Positions 1,366 through 36,988 of a stretch of DNA of 64,000 bases are shown here, in pieces (position 1 is the first letter of the stretch; every line of letters starts with the position of its first letter). The stretch is from Falsiroseomonas bella (GTDB lineage: Bacteria > Pseudomonadota > Alphaproteobacteria > Acetobacterales > Acetobacteraceae): contig NZ_QGNA01000005.1 of assembly GCF_003173615.1 (NCBI RefSeq), forward strand, positions 372,001 through 436,000. Direction: 5' to 3'. Under the pieces are notes generated by a model that saw nothing but the letters and a program-made list of their open reading frames with translations, had not been told where the DNA came from and ran no database searches. Position numbers and translations under genes: made by a program.

Positions 1366-1788
1366 TCAGCCCTGCTCCTCCTCCTCCGCCACTTCCGGCT
1401 TCGGGCCGCTGTCCTGGCCCTTCGCCGTGACGTCGCGCTCGACCAGCTCGATCACCGCCATGGTCGCCGCGTCGCCGTAGCGCATGCCGGCCTTCAGCAC
1501 GCGGGTGTAGCCGCCATTGCGCGCCTTGTAGCGCTCCGCGACCGTGGTGAAGAGCTTCTCCACCACCTTCTCGTCGCGGATCTGCGCGAGCGCCTGGCGG
1601 CGCGCATGCAGGCCGCCGCGCTTGCCGAGCGTGATGATGCGCTCGACGTAGGGGCGCAGCTCCTTCGCCTTGGGCAGCGTGGTGGTGATCTGCTCGTGCT
1701 TGATCAGGCTGGTCGCCATGTTGCGCAGCATCGCCACCCGGTGGGTGGAGGTGACGCCGAGCTTACGGCCGGAAACCCCGTGACGCAT
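1366..1788 (-). CDS. rplQ: 50S ribosomal protein bL17
   Basis: This 140-residue protein is bL17 of the large subunit, which binds 23S rRNA near the exit tunnel. The N-terminal family signature is present ([17 protein letters not shown], then [19 protein letters not shown]), followed by [19 protein letters not shown]. The last 20 residues form an acidic tail ending in Glu-rich sequence, giving a protein slightly longer than the usual 120-130. It is the last gene of the alpha operon, 33 bases after rpoA, and is followed by a strong hairpin. Confidence 0.97.
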
Positions 1789-1821
1789 GATACCTTTCCC
1801 TCAGTCCCTACGGGGCCGCCC

Positions 1822-2835
1822 TCAGAAGGGCTCCTCCAGCTTCTTCGCGAGATCCTCGATGTTCTCCGGCGGCCAGCCCGGCACGGTCATGCCGAGGCCG
1901 AGGCCCATGGAGGCGAGGACTTCCTTGATCTCGTTCAGCGACTTGCGGCCGAAGTTCGGCGTGCGGAGCATCTCCTGCTCGGTCTTCTGCACGAGGTCGC
2001 CGATATAGACGATGTTGTCGTTCTTCAGGCAGTTCGCGGAGCGCACCGAAAGCTCCAGCTCGTCCACCTTGCGCAGCAGGTTGCGGTTGAAGGGCAGGTC
2101 GTCGCGGACCTCCTCCACCACGCGCTGGCGCGGCTCCTCGAAGTTGATGAAGAGCTGCAGCTGCTCCTGCAGGATGCGCGCCGCGATGCCCACCGCGTCC
2201 TCGGGCGTGACGGTGCCGTCGGTCTCGACCGTGAGGACCAGCTTGTCATAGTCGGTCTTCTGGCCGACGCGGGTGGGCTGCACCTGGTAGGCGACGCGGC
2301 GGACCGGCGAATAGATCGCGTCCACCGGGATCAGGCCGATCGGCGCGTCCTCGGGCCGGTTCTCGGCGGCGGGGACGTAGCCCTTGCCGGTCTCGACGGT
2401 GAGCTCCATGGAGAGCTTCGCGCCGTCGTCGAGCGTGCAGAGCACGAGGTCGGGGTTGGCGATCTCGATGTCGCCGGTGGTCTGGATCTGGCCGGCGGTG
2501 ACCTCGCCCGGGCCGGTCGCGGTCAGCGCGAGCCGCTTCGGGCCGTCGCCCTGGTAGCGGATGGCGAGCTGCTTCACGTTCAGCACGATGTCCGTCACGT
2601 CCTCGCGGACGCCCTGGATCGAGCTGAATTCGTGCAGCACGCCGTCGATGCGGATGCCGGTGACGGCGGCGCCCTGCAGCGAGGACAGCAGGATGCGGCG
2701 CAGCGCGTTGCCGAGCGTCATGCCGAAGCCGCGCTCGAGCGGCTCGGCCACGATCGTGGCCGTGCGCATCGGGTCGGCGCCGAACTCGACGTCCTTCTTG
2801 GTCTCGATCAGCGAGCGCCAGTTCTTCTCGATCAT
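1822..2835 (-). CDS. rpoA: DNA-directed RNA polymerase subunit alpha
   Basis: This is the 337-residue alpha subunit that dimerises to nucleate assembly of RNA polymerase. The N-terminal dimerisation domain (about residues 1-230) shows the conserved [20 protein letters not shown]. The C-terminal domain (about 255-320), which contacts UP elements and activators, shows [16 protein letters not shown] and [16 protein letters not shown]. Length is normal. It lies 61 bases after rpsK and 33 before rplQ, the standard alpha-operon arrangement. Confidence 0.98.
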
Positions 2836-2896
2836 CTCTTTCCTCGTCCCGGACAGGCGGCGCGGCGGTGGCGGCGGGGCGGCACCCCGCCCTACA

Positions 2897-3301
2897 TCAC
2901 ACGCGACGGCGCTTGCGCGGGCGGCAACCGTTGTGCGGGATGGGCGTCACGTCCTTGATGGCGGTGACGTAGAAGCCCACGGCCTGCAGCGCGCGAAGCG
3001 CCGATTCGCGGCCCGAGCCGGGGCCGCTGACCTGGATCTCCAGCGTCTCCATGCCGTGCTCGCGAGCCTTCTTGCCGGCGTCCTCGGCGGCGACCTGGGC
3101 GGCGTAGGGGGTGGACTTGCGGCTGCCCTTGAATCCCTGGCTGCCGGCCGACGACCAGGCGATGGCGTTGCCCTGCGCGTCGGTGATGGTCACCACCGTG
3201 TTGTTGAAGCTGGCGAGAACATGCGCCACGCCGGAGCTGATGTTCTTCCGCTCCTTCTTGCGCGGGCGGTTGCCGGCGCCACCGCGGGGTTCGCGAGCCA
3301 T
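2897..3301 (-). CDS. rpsK: 30S ribosomal protein uS11
   Basis: This 134-residue protein is uS11 of the small-subunit platform, where it contacts 16S rRNA near the E-site mRNA path. It shows the family core [20 protein letters not shown] and the C-terminal block [18 protein letters not shown]. The basic N-terminus ([18 protein letters not shown]) is typical of alphaproteobacterial copies. It follows rpsM by a single base, so the two are almost certainly translationally coupled. Confidence 0.98.
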
Positions 3302-3302
3302 C

Positions 3303-3680
3303 TTACTTCGTCACCTTCTTCTTGCCGGCGATCGCCACCGCCTTGCCCTTGCGCGTGCGCGCATTCGTGTGGGTGCGCTGGCCGCGGACCGGCAGGCCCT
3401 TGCGGTGACGCAGGCCGCGGTAGCAGGCCATGTCCATCAGGCGCTTCTTGTTCATCGCCTCTTCGCGGCGGAGGTCGCCCTCGACGCGGTATTCGCGATC
3501 GATCAGCTCGCGGATGCGCAGCACTTCCTCATCGGTCAGCTGGTTCACCCGACGCTCCTCGGGGATGCCGAGGTGGTCGATGATGTCCTTCGCGTTCTTC
3601 GGACCGATCCCGTAGATGTAGCGAAGCGATATGGCGACCCGCTTGTTGGTCGGGATGTTCACGCCGGCGATGCGCGCCAC
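3303..3680 (-). CDS. rpsM: 30S ribosomal protein uS13
   Basis: This 125-residue protein is uS13 of the small-subunit head, which bridges to 50S protein L5 and touches P-site tRNA. Evidence is the N-terminus [15 protein letters not shown], the helix-two-turn-helix motif [11 protein letters not shown], and the basic C-terminus [19 protein letters not shown]. It opens the alpha operon. A 167-base gap separates it from adk upstream, and that gap contains a readable promoter at 3804-3833. Confidence 0.98.
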
Positions 3681-33313: not shown

Positions 33314-33451
33314 CGTCCCGCCTTCACCCGATCCGGCGCGGTAACGCCACAGCAACCGCGTCCTGTCCAGACGCTTCGGCGCCCGTCGCAACCGCCGCCC
33401 GATCCGGCTATGCAGATGGGCCGTTCGCGGCCCGCCCGAAAGGACCCAGCC

Positions 33452-34765
33452 TTGCGCGTCGTCGGATTTGTGCCTGCCAAGGGATCGAGCGACCGCATCC
33501 CGTCGAAGAACATGCGCATCCTGGACGGCGAGTTCCTGTTCCGCCGCAAGCTGCGCCAGATGCTTGAAAGCGGCGTCTTCGACGAGGTGTGGCTCGACAC
33601 CGAATCGGACGAGATCGCAGCGCTGGCCGCCGACCTGCCGGTGAAGCTGCTGCGCCGCGACCCGGCGCTCGCCTCCAACGCCACGGACGGGCACGAGCTC
33701 TTCGCCAATGCGTGCCGCGCGGCGCCGGGGGGCGACCTTTACGTGCAGGCGCTCTGCACCGCGCCCTTCGTCGGGCCAGAGACCTTCCGCCGCGCGGTCG
33801 CCGCGCTGCGGGAGGCGCCGCAGGCCGACAGCCTGGTCGCGGTGACGACCGAGAAGCACTACGCCTGGGCCGGCGGCGACCCGGCCTATGGGCGCGGGCG
33901 CATCCCGAACAGCGTGGACCTGCCGGCGCAGACGATCGAGGCGATGAGCCTCTACATGATGCGCGCGACGGCGGCGGACTTCCCGGGCAGGCGCTTCGGC
34001 CGCGCGCCGCTGCTGTTCGAGCTGACCACGCGGGAACGGCTCGACATCAACTGGCAGGATGATCTCGACCTCGCGGAGACGATCTGCGCCGGGGAGCGGC
34101 AGCGGGAGGTGATGCTGTTCCGCGCGCTGCGCCCGCATCTCAGCGCCTCCGTCTTCTCGGACCTGACGAAGGAGATGGGGCTCTCCTGCACGCTGCCGGC
34201 GGCGATCCGGCCGCTGGCGGGGCGGCGCATCCTGGGGCGGGCGAAGACGCTGAAGCTGGTGGCGCTGCCGCCGGGTGCCACGCGGGAGAGCGGGGAGTGG
34301 AAGGGCATCTACGACGCGCTGAAATCCTACGCCTTCCTGCGTGCGGGCGACGTGATCGTGGTCTCCACCGCGGTGCCGGAGCGCGCCTATTTCGGTGAGC
34401 TGAACGCACATCTGGCGATGCGCGCCGGCGCGGTCGGCGTGGTGGTGGACGGCTACACCCGCGACATCGAGGCGGTGGCGCCGCTCGACCTGCCGGTCTT
34501 CGCCCGCGGTGCCTCGGCCAACGACATCAAATACGAGGGCACGACGGGCGCGATGAACACCGCGGTCTCGATTGGCGAGGTGACGCTGCGCAACAACGAC
34601 GTGGTCTTCGCCGATGCCGACGGCGTGGTGGCGATCCCGCGCGAGCGCTGGGACGAGGTGTTGCGGCTCAGCCTGGATGCCATCGTCAACGAATCGCGGG
34701 TGCGGCTGAACGCGGCGCTGGGGCGGCCGGTGGACGAGCTGCTCGAGAAGTTCGGGTATTTCTGA
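33452..34765 (+). CDS. acylneuraminate cytidylyltransferase-like protein fused to an RraA-type domain
   Basis: The 437-residue product has two parts. Residues 1 to about 235 resemble CMP-sialic-acid/CMP-Kdo synthetases: the NTP-binding loop FVPAKGSSDRIPSKNMRILD, then FDEVWLDTESDEIAALA and YVQALCTAPFVGPETFRRAV. Residues of about 250-437 resemble the RraA/HMG-aldolase fold, with the active-site pattern AVGVVVDGYTRDIEAV and the closing block NNDVVFADADGVVAIPRERW. The TTG start at 33452 is preferred because AAAGGA lies seven bases upstream; an in-frame ATG at 33410 has no ribosome site. The TylF-type methyltransferase follows 19 bases later. A role in making and activating a 2-keto sugar acid is an inference. 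Confidence 0.85.
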   Translation: MRVVGFVPAKGSSDRIPSKNMRILDGEFLFRRKLRQMLESGVFDEVWLDTESDEIAALAADLPVKLLRRDPALASNATDGHELFANACRAAPGGDLYVQALCTAPFVGPETFRRAVAALREAPQADSLVAVTTEKHYAWAGGDPAYGRGRIPNSVDLPAQTIEAMSLYMMRATAADFPGRRFGRAPLLFELTTRERLDINWQDDLDLAETICAGERQREVMLFRALRPHLSASVFSDLTKEMGLSCTLPAAIRPLAGRRILGRAKTLKLVALPPGATRESGEWKGIYDALKSYAFLRAGDVIVVSTAVPERAYFGELNAHLAMRAGAVGVVVDGYTRDIEAVAPLDLPVFARGASANDIKYEGTTGAMNTAVSIGEVTLRNNDVVFADADGVVAIPRERWDEVLRLSLDAIVNESRVRLNAALGRPVDELLEKFGYF

Positions 34766-35452: not shown

Positions 35453-36988
35453 TCAGCCCCCAGCCCGGCCTTCCCCCGTGAACGGGGGAGGGAGAAGTTC
35501 GGGCTCCAGCCCCAGCTTCTCGCCCACCGCCCGCAGCAGCGCGTCCTCGACGCCCCAGAGCGCGAGTGTGAAGCGGCTGCCGTGCTGGGCGTCGCCTTCC
35601 GCCTCCTCGATCACCGCGCGCTGGTCGAGCTGCACCACCGTCGGCTCGTGCAGGTCGGAGCGGTTCGGGACCATGGCGGCGACGTGGTAAACGATGGTCG
35701 GGCGTTCCAGCAGCCAGCTCGGCAGCAACGCGCCGGTGCCCTGGGTGGTCAGCACCAGGTCGCAGGGCGCGATCTCGGCGACCTTCTCATAGGCAGAGCG
35801 GCCGAAGAGGCGGATCTCGGATGCGATCGCGACACCAAGGTCCTGCTTGATCGCGGCGATCGCCGCCTCGATGCGGGCCATCACCATGCGGTCCTTCTCC
35901 GTCGGCTCGCCGGAGATGGTCCAGCCGTCCCAGGCGACCTCCATCGCCAGGCCGCGCGCGGCGCAGGCGGCGCCGAGGCGGCGAAGGACGAAGCGGAAGA
36001 CTTCTGCCTGGTTCAGCAGGCGCGCCCGCTCCGCATCCACCGAGAGCATCAAGCGGAAGCGGCCGCCGCGTGCAGGGTCCGCAAGCGCCGACAGGCCGAA
36101 GCGGCGGCGCAGCCAGCCCGGCCCCTCCGCGGTCTTGAAGCGGTAGACGCGATGCGCGTCCACGCCGGCATCGAGCAGCGCCAGCGCGGCGCCCGTGCTC
36201 TGCAGGCGCTGCACCGGGCCCTCGGCGAGCGTGGGGATCACCGCCAGCGGGTCCATTGCGCACCAGTCCTCGAGCAGCACCAGCAGGCCGCCGCGGCGTC
36301 GGAAGCCGATGATGTCGGCCTCGGCGGCGTCGAGATAGGCGAGCGATTCCTTGAGGTAGTGGCCCGGCCGCGGATCGCCGACGACGAGGGCGAGGCGTAG
36401 CGCGCCCGCGAGGGCGCGCGCGACGAAGCGTGCGACTCGCTGCGGCTCCGGCAGCAGCAGGCGCAGCACGCGCCAGGTCGCGTTGCGTGGGTCGAGCGCG
36501 TTCGGGCGCAGCATCAGGAACAGATCGCGCGCGGGGTAGTACACGCCCTGCGGCAGGCGGCCGACGAAGACGAAGAAGAACAGCTCCCGGTCGTGCAGCG
36601 CGAGGTAGATCTGATGCGAATCCGCCAGCACCTCGCCCAGCACCGGCACGTCGCGGTGGTGCAGCGGCGAGCGCAGCAGCCGCGGCCGGCCGGCGAGACA
36701 GGCGGCGTGGATTGCGCGCAGATGCTCCAGCCAGGCGGCGGAGCGGTAGGCCTTCACGTCCTCGGGCAGCGGGCGAGGCAAGTCTGAGGGCCAGTCGCGG
36801 CCGCCGAGCTGCAGATGGCGGCAGCGCGCCAGCATCGCGTTGATGCCATGCAGCGCCGGGTCGCGCTGCGGGCCGGCGTAGGAAAAGTTCTCGGGTGCGA
36901 TGCCGCAGAGCGCCGCCAGGGATTCGGCGGCGTCCTGCGGCGAGGCGTGGCGGAGGAGGAGGCTGGAAGCGCCCTCCTCCGCGTGCAT
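35453..36988 (-). CDS. 511-residue protein of unknown function, possibly glycan-related
   Basis: I do not recognise a firm family. The protein has no signal peptide. The C-terminal third contains [20 protein letters not shown] and later [20 protein letters not shown], then PTIVYH. These loosely resemble the nucleotide-sugar-binding end of GT-B or GT61-type glycosyltransferases, where a Gly-rich loop precedes a Ser/Leu helix. The neighbours also suggest glycan work. The ATG is only seven bases after the tuf2 stop, and TAAGG at that stop can act as its ribosome site, so it is probably read from the tuf2 transcript. The last 13 residues ([13 protein letters not shown]) are encoded by a palindromic repeat and are probably not part of the original protein. 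Confidence 0.75.
35469..35492. repeat. palindromic repeat, copy 2, forming the end of a coding region
   Basis: CCTTCCCCCGT and ACGGGGGAGGG form an 11-base-pair stem (one G-T pair) with a two-base loop. It closely matches the element at 28151-28174. Here it supplies the C-terminal codons of the 511-residue protein and lies between two convergent genes. Confidence 0.65.

Follow-up and report, generated by a model that had tools for sequence, protein, structure and literature searches.

A stretch of 64,000 nucleotides from Falsiroseomonas bella (contig NZ_QGNA01000005.1, positions 372,001 to 436,000; the window in what follows) carries a gene for a 437-residue protein in which a cytidylyltransferase (N half) is fused to an RraA-like domain (C half or RraA half). 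This fusion most likely makes a donor of the CMP-Kdo type (CMP, cytidine monophosphate; Kdo, 3-deoxy-D-manno-octulosonic acid). We consider it reasonably probable that the protein is a CMP-ulosonate synthetase for Kdo or a Kdo-derived octulosonic acid, and that its C half is an aldolase-type module acting on the same acid. The acid would be supplied by KdsA and its companions and joined to cytidine triphosphate (CTP) by the N half, and the resulting CMP-sugar would feed a transferase of the Maf/MptE, GT29 or polysialyltransferase type, with O-methylation by TylF in some loci. The C half may act as a metal-dependent module of the pyruvate-aldolase type whose target is not RNA but this acid at its open-chain 2-keto-3-deoxy end; the reaction would be reversible cleavage, epimerisation or salvage. 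If so, one protein family would connect Kdo chemistry with the glycosylation of proteins or surfaces in Lachnospiraceae, proteobacteria and viruses, the RraA fold would gain a testable role in sugar-acid metabolism, and a giant-virus protein would acquire a function for its half that lacks an explanation.

Distribution and co-inheritance of the two halves

In a pattern-limited scan of 84,980 species, each represented by one genome, five full-length loci were found: three in Acetobacteraceae (80-89% identity), one in Parvularcula (62%) and one in a Lachnospiraceae genome (G402; 40%). Genome samples contributed further fusions in G1279, which belongs to the family of G402, in G629, which belongs to its phylum, and in the proteobacteria G023, G1399 and G1563, which share the phylum of the window and fall into another class. 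Among virus contigs, phage-like by eye, full-length or nearly full-length fusions were found in 23, then in 34 distinct contigs, and with one more in 35. As full-length relatives occur across many species and in virus contigs, the fusion is neither a chance product nor an assembly artefact. The initial annotation of the window had proposed this two-domain protein from the sequence, and the open frame, both Pfam domains, the structure model and the relatives elsewhere bear it out.

The fusion is a co-inherited architecture, widespread but sparse. Counted at E <= 1e-60 (1e-50 in the sample of the phylum of G402) and with the centre genomes included, it occurs in 2/200 genomes of the window's own family and 2/398 of its phylum, in 2/348 of both the phylum and the family of G402, in 1/38 of the order of G629 and in 3/371 of the order of G023. 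Pairwise identities of the N and C halves correlate at 0.96 (27 rows). Quick trees of the two halves agree in their main clades, and the differences, e.g. the placement of the Parvularcula locus, are weakly supported. The 59 invariant columns are spread over the N half (37) and the C half (22), and both are therefore under constraint.

Scans were also made with single halves. All 35 loci found with the C half alone lie in fusion contigs, as do 34 of the 40 found with the N half alone; the other six, from contigs absent from the C-half results, match at 22-33% identity, and genes were read in four of these contigs (L176, L178, L180 and L181). In the virus contig L176 (230 kb) the two halves are encoded by separate genes, part of a single same-strand run of genes whose ends touch (Table 1). 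It is a single case. R337, D338 and E414 of the window fusion all have counterparts in its RraA protein, which, used as a query, matches its own contig only; the separate cytidylyltransferase matches its own contig and L219 (29%), where inspection by eye revealed no RraA gene. Homologues with the two halves as separate, unrelated genes that never lie close together had been named beforehand as a sign against a functional link, and L176 contradicts that picture.

Other collections were searched for the same architecture. Phage isolates in INPHARED gave no match, 81 plasmid records matched part of the fusion protein and none covered 80% of it, and PHROGs held no family for the window fusion or for one virus fusion at 1e-5. 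No full-length fusion was recognised among the BFVD matches listed, the top row being a 545-residue phage cytidylyltransferase (363 aligned columns, TMq 0.42).

The cytidylyltransferase half

The N half matches CTP_transf_3 of Pfam over residues 6-135 (E 7e-15; 55.9 bits against a cut-off of 22.6). An AlphaFold2 model of the fusion, built on 22 relatives, reached a mean predicted local distance difference test score (pLDDT) of 90.4 and a predicted template modelling score (pTM) of 0.84, and a search with the predicted structure returned CMP-sugar synthetases over residues 1-215 or so. The assignment of this half to the CMP-ulosonate synthetases in the initial annotation is thus upheld. Judged by its sequence, the N half is of the NeuA type, albeit an atypical one, and we infer a synthetase (CMP-transfer) activity for it. 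The NCBIfam models for KdsB stayed below cut-off for the fusion (best 31.5 bits against 193), as did PseF (TIGR03584, 56.1 bits against 205.7), which is still the best NCBIfam match of the N half.

Residue conservation was counted over 27 aligned fusions. D198 is kept in 27/27, and position 200 is Asn in 24 and Asp in three. In the meningococcal CMP-N-acetylneuraminate (CMP-NeuAc) synthetase, D209A, D211A and several changes of Gln104 caused strong losses of activity, according to the available text of PMC2901514. The closest solved relative of the N half is the CMP-Kdn synthetase PpNeuA (9t4z). Compared with 9t4z and the CMP-NeuAc synthetases, the fusion has its sugar-contact Gln and an R-Q pair replaced, N200 in place of an Asp, a loop Lys for Arg and an extra RraA domain. 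As these sugar-contact residues are replaced, the bound acid is probably not N-acetylneuraminic acid (Neu5Ac).

The RraA half

The C half gives a stronger Pfam match (RraA-like, residues 236-393, E 7e-29; 101.4 bits against 24.5), and the structure search returned RraA and 4-hydroxy-4-methyl-2-oxoglutarate (HMG) aldolase proteins over residues 216-434 or so. Counted along the alignment with the HMG/4-carboxy-4-hydroxy-2-oxoadipate (CHA) aldolase of P. putida (3NOJ), R337-D338 of the motif VDGYTRD fall on Arg-123 and Asp-124. In that aldolase Arg-123 stabilises the enolate, and Asp-124 and Glu-199 are acidic metal-binding residues, as given in the accessible part of PMC5065237. E414 falls on Glu-199 without a gap in the last helix in the profile alignment; phmmer alone places it two residues off. 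G315, R337, D338 and E414 are invariant in 27/27 fusions, and position 316 is Glu in 14 (the window included), Asp in 12 and Asn in one. The catalytic Arg-Asp pair noted in the initial annotation is thus present in all 27 aligned fusions, and position 316 is Asp or Glu in 26/27. HMG/CHA aldolases reportedly carry a D-X20-R-D motif, whose first Asp is Glu in the window fusion; this exchange is conservative, yet it departs from the motif. By alignment, then, the residues that bind metal and stabilise the enolate in HMG/CHA aldolase have counterparts in the RraA half, and the aldolase site is largely kept. The fusion shares with 3NOJ the fold and the active-site set Gly, Asp/Glu, Arg, Asp and Glu; it differs in being fused and at 26-27% identity. 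It stays below the cut-off of the LigK/HMG-CHA aldolase equivalog (TIGR02798, 68.7 bits against 304.5) and of the enterobacterial RNase E regulator RraA (TIGR02998, 24.6 bits against 241.25).

We also considered the RraA half as a general substitute for a missing Kdo-8-phosphatase and rejected this reading: the cluster of G1279 (L142) already has KdsC (TIGR01670, 142 bits against 106.95), and the canonical cassette of G402 shows no KdsC though its KdsB is free of an RraA domain. KdsC was above cut-off in one of seven fusion genomes, a weak absence since a Caulobacter control gave no match either. The genome of the window (G000) contains seven RraA-like genes including the fusion, all above the Pfam cut-off.

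Gene neighbours: the Kdo pathway

Eleven bacterial fusion loci were compared (the window, L008-L012, L077, L078 and L142-L144). In four of them kdsA is directly adjacent, in three arrangements, accompanied by KpsF in two of the four and by KdsC in one. Cassettes of the order kpsF-fusion-kdsA occur in the two genomes of the Lachnospiraceae family, G402 and G1279. As G402 has a kdsB-kdsA-kpsF run in parallel to its separate kpsF-fusion-kdsA run (L101, L103), the fusion occupies the kdsB slot; KdsB thus resembles the fusion in gene slot in two loci and in probable reaction. In G1279 the run reads kpsF-fusion-kdsA-GT2-MptE-like, with kdsC further on, and its KpsF, KdsA and KdsC pass TIGR00393, TIGR01362 and TIGR01670. 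The kdsA gene of Roseococcus (L011) stops about 150 bases upstream of the fusion, and that of Parvularcula (L010) is adjacent and divergent. A KdsA passing TIGR01362 was found in 8/8 bacterial fusion genomes searched (G000, G023, G398-G402, G629).

These neighbours point to Kdo and bear out the sugar-acid context proposed initially. With KdsA adjacent, and KpsF and KdsC in some loci, synthesis from phosphoenolpyruvate (PEP) by KdsA is the likelier origin of the acid. On the virus side, a DAHP_synth_1 match was found in 8/15 records, one with an internal stop, and NeuB in 0/15, some of which may be fragments. KpsF was not found in the six virus stretches that were read among these eight. NeuB was likewise not found in G000 or G398-G401.

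An HMGL-like (4-hydroxy-2-oxovalerate-aldolase-like) gene, a haloacid dehalogenase (HAD) hydrolase gene and kdsB lie in a row near the fusion of L144 (4327-7323), another pairing of an aldolase with a CMP-synthetase. Two virus genes near cytidylyltransferase genes (L217, 8793-10133; L180, 3618-5003) start as a HAD hydrolase and seem to continue as a nucleotidyltransferase-like part, which fell below the Pfam cut-off in the one scanned. Virus contig L181 (109-2982) holds what by eye is a sialic-acid set of consecutive genes: a NanE-like one, a NeuB-like one, a methyltransferase and one of the NeuA type.

Transferase and methyltransferase partners

The genes next to the fusion also include candidate users of its product. 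An MptE-like gene, called by similarity to a gene of L019 and belonging to the family that makes up the Maf core, directly adjoins the fusion in 21/34 virus contigs. Clustered at 95% identity, these represent 9 of 15 clusters, and the gene lies upstream in five of them and downstream in four. A GT29 sialyltransferase-type gene abuts it in two contigs (one cluster), and neither type does so in 11 (five clusters). The scanned virus MptE-like proteins were below the Pfam cut-off and the virus GT29 protein above it; a GT29 match in L077 was below (14.2 against 23) and was not counted. Among the bacterial loci, L078 combines the fusion with tylF and with a Maf protein one gene away (PF01973, 2e-48; Maf_flag10_N, 2.4e-15), beside genes that read by eye as flagellin, FliD and FlgK. 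MptE-like genes above cut-off lie near the fusion in L012 and L142, and L143 has two A-2_8-polyST genes less than 6 kb away on the opposite strand. These partners fit a CMP-ulosonate donor. For one Maf enzyme, transfer of both Kdo and Neu5Ac has been demonstrated (PMC11339370, as far as its text was available).

The tylF gene is paired with the fusion in 3/11 bacterial loci, two of which, the window and L008, represent the same neighbourhood in close relatives. The third is L078, from another phylum, where TylF is 45% identical and stands beside the fusion. The suggestion that TylF methylates the product gains support from this recurrence, with Maf one gene away and flagellin-like genes beyond.

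Relation to described systems

The architecture is very probably already known in print from the giant virus CroV, though without a function in the part of the source at hand. There, crov265 (KdsC and isomerase), crov266 and crov267 (KdsA with a sugar O-methyltransferase domain) make up the putative Kdo pathway of Fischer et al., and crov266 is described as a CMP-NeuAc-synthetase-like N half with a demethylmenaquinone methyltransferase C half (PMC9614988). As the RraA-family entries 1j3l, 1nxj and 2pcn of the PDB bear this old methyltransferase label, crov266, compared by description, very probably has the same architecture as the window fusion; it was not among the BFVD matches listed. By this description its two halves agree with the fusion, and its place in a Kdo cluster, flanked by the KdsC-isomerase and KdsA-methyltransferase proteins, with some bacterial cassettes. 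It differs from the window gene in belonging to a virus of a marine flagellate; the window gene, placed between nusG and tuf, has no kdsA nearby. CMP-Kdo modules have also been reported in polar giant viruses (PMC10570341, available in part). RraA domains stand behind a metabolic enzyme in PRK07028 (Hps-RraA) and PRK12764 (FAH-RraA) too, with a different partner enzyme. No paper on a cytidylyltransferase-RraA fusion was found beyond the CroV review in the open-licence literature, and reports elsewhere are possible. Within the literature searched, the distribution over bacteria and virus contigs, the kpsF-fusion-kdsA cassettes, the aldolase site that the C half retains and the occurrence of the halves as separate genes are new.

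Weighing the possible functions

Several observations weigh against a CMP-Kdo synthetase. In 7/11 bacterial loci, the window included, kdsA is not adjacent. Each of the eight bacterial fusion genomes searched has at least one other CTP_transf_3 or KdsB protein with a far higher score; in G402 and G629 NCBIfam identifies it as KdsB, and in G000 and G398 it lies beside KdsA (the checks were limited to these). In all six virus stretches read, chosen among the eight with a KdsA (DAHP_synth_1) match, kdsA and a KdsB-type gene overlap or touch at a distance of about 11-13 kb from the fusion; one protein of each kind was scored with NCBIfam, where KdsA passed TIGR01362 (317.7 against 314) and KdsB stayed below TIGR00466 (120.9 against 155.2). 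With another KdsB-type enzyme in the carriers, a second CMP-Kdo synthetase seems redundant. Further, the N half is closer to CMP-Kdn, CMP-NeuAc and CMP-Pse synthetases than to KdsB, and NeuB is present in G023 and G629. N200 stands in the place of a metal Asp, and exchange of that Asp for Ala lowered kcat 15,000-fold (PMC2901514). The Gln104 place (equivalence via 9t4z) is L101 in 27/27 fusions; this Gln is not universal, as Tyr takes its place in the CMP-Pse synthetase 9ftb. P-R-R-Q-D of 9t4z reads P-N-S-V-D in the fusion, S154-V155 replacing the R-Q pair. On the side of the C half, the split RraA protein of L176 has Arg at the D/E316 position. The redundancy would be explained if the RraA half remodelled Kdo by retro-aldol cleavage and re-addition, e.g. 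with inversion at C4, so that a second, undescribed octulosonic acid is made and activated beside ordinary CMP-Kdo; we regard this as a minor possibility. The kinship of the N half could instead mean that the fusion activates a nine-carbon acid of the Kdn, legionaminic or pseudaminic type next to incidental kdsA genes. The CMP-Kdn synthetase as closest solved relative, PseF as best NCBIfam match, the Maf, GT29 and polysialyltransferase-type neighbours and the two genomes with NeuB are in line with this, but the kpsF-fusion-kdsA cassettes, the replaced sialate-contact residues and the failure to find NeuB in the virus records, fragments among them, or in G000 and G398-G401 make it very unlikely.

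As to the RraA half, our best guess is an action on the same 2-keto-3-deoxy acid, ahead of a structural or regulatory role and, last, of building the acid. The initial annotation had one polypeptide both build and activate the acid, the RraA half condensing pyruvate with an aldose. The retained aldolase residues agree with this proposal, as Kdo-type acids are 2-keto-4-hydroxy acids like HMG, and so does the aldolase-type HMGL-like gene, different from RraA, with HAD and KdsB genes near the L144 fusion. PEP-dependent KdsA, however, is adjacent in 4/11 bacterial loci, with KpsF and KdsC in some, and occurs in every bacterial fusion genome searched; building the acid is thus not supported as the main route and is decidedly improbable. 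Architecture, residues, context and TylF pairing of that annotation are supported, and its one-chain route is not, as the main one. The RraA half might also be non-catalytic, organising oligomers or regulating the synthetase as RraA does for RNase E, which we think unlikely. A role like that of the RNase E regulator itself, the alternative offered initially, is unlikely as well, yet the best structural matches include RraAS2 from Streptomyces. A CMP-ulosonate synthetase for Kdo or a relative of it, with an aldolase-type module, remains the preferred reading.

Features of the window and of the split locus

The fusion gene of the window is placed between nusG and tuf with tylF as its sole same-strand companion (Table 1). 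ATG codons at 33410 and 33416 are alternative in-frame starts.

Table 1. Features of the window and of virus contig L176, in coordinates of the respective record.
Record	Feature	Position	Strand	Basis or remark
Window	Probable ribosome-binding site, AAAGGA	33439..33444	+	7 bases 5' of TTG; read in sequence
Window	Fusion coding sequence, 437 residues	33452..34765	+	Open frame from TTG 33452; translation, Pfam, full-length relatives
Window	N-terminal cytidylyltransferase domain, residues 1-215	33452..34096	+	Pfam CTP_transf_3 at 6-135
Window	D198-I199-N200, putative metal ligands	34043..34051	+	Place of Asp209/Asp211 of CMP-NeuAc synthetase; inferred equivalence
Window	C-terminal RraA-like domain, about residues 216-437	34097..34762	+	Pfam RraA-like at 236-393
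Window	G315-E316, on Gly-101 and residue 102 (Asp) of HMG/CHA aldolase	34394..34399	+	Alignment with 3NOJ
Window	R337-D338, on catalytic Arg-123 and metal ligand Asp-124	34460..34465	+	Alignment with 3NOJ
Window	E414, on Glu-199 (second acidic metal residue)	34691..34693	+	Ungapped alignment
Window	TylF-type O-methyltransferase, 219 residues	34785..35444	+	Pfam TylF 8.8e-16; starts 19 bases past fusion
Window	Family-less gene, 511 residues, convergent with tylF	35453..36988	-	Link to fusion uncertain
L176	MptE-like gene	827-1516	Same as run	
L176	RraA-like gene	1503-2129		Pfam 4e-24; hhalign to C-half alignment, probability 99.4
L176	Radical SAM/SPASM gene	2126-2998		Between split RraA and cytidylyltransferase genes
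L176	Separate cytidylyltransferase	2995-3654		33% identical to N half

The G+C content of the fusion (0.702; 0.93 at third codon positions) is close to that of the window (0.705), and recent foreign DNA, considered as an origin, was set aside as composition gives no sign of it. The 511-residue gene gave no Pfam, NCBIfam, PDB or plasmid match, and its AlphaFold2 model (pLDDT 37) was unusable. A 78% identical copy is present in L008, there too between tylF and tuf.
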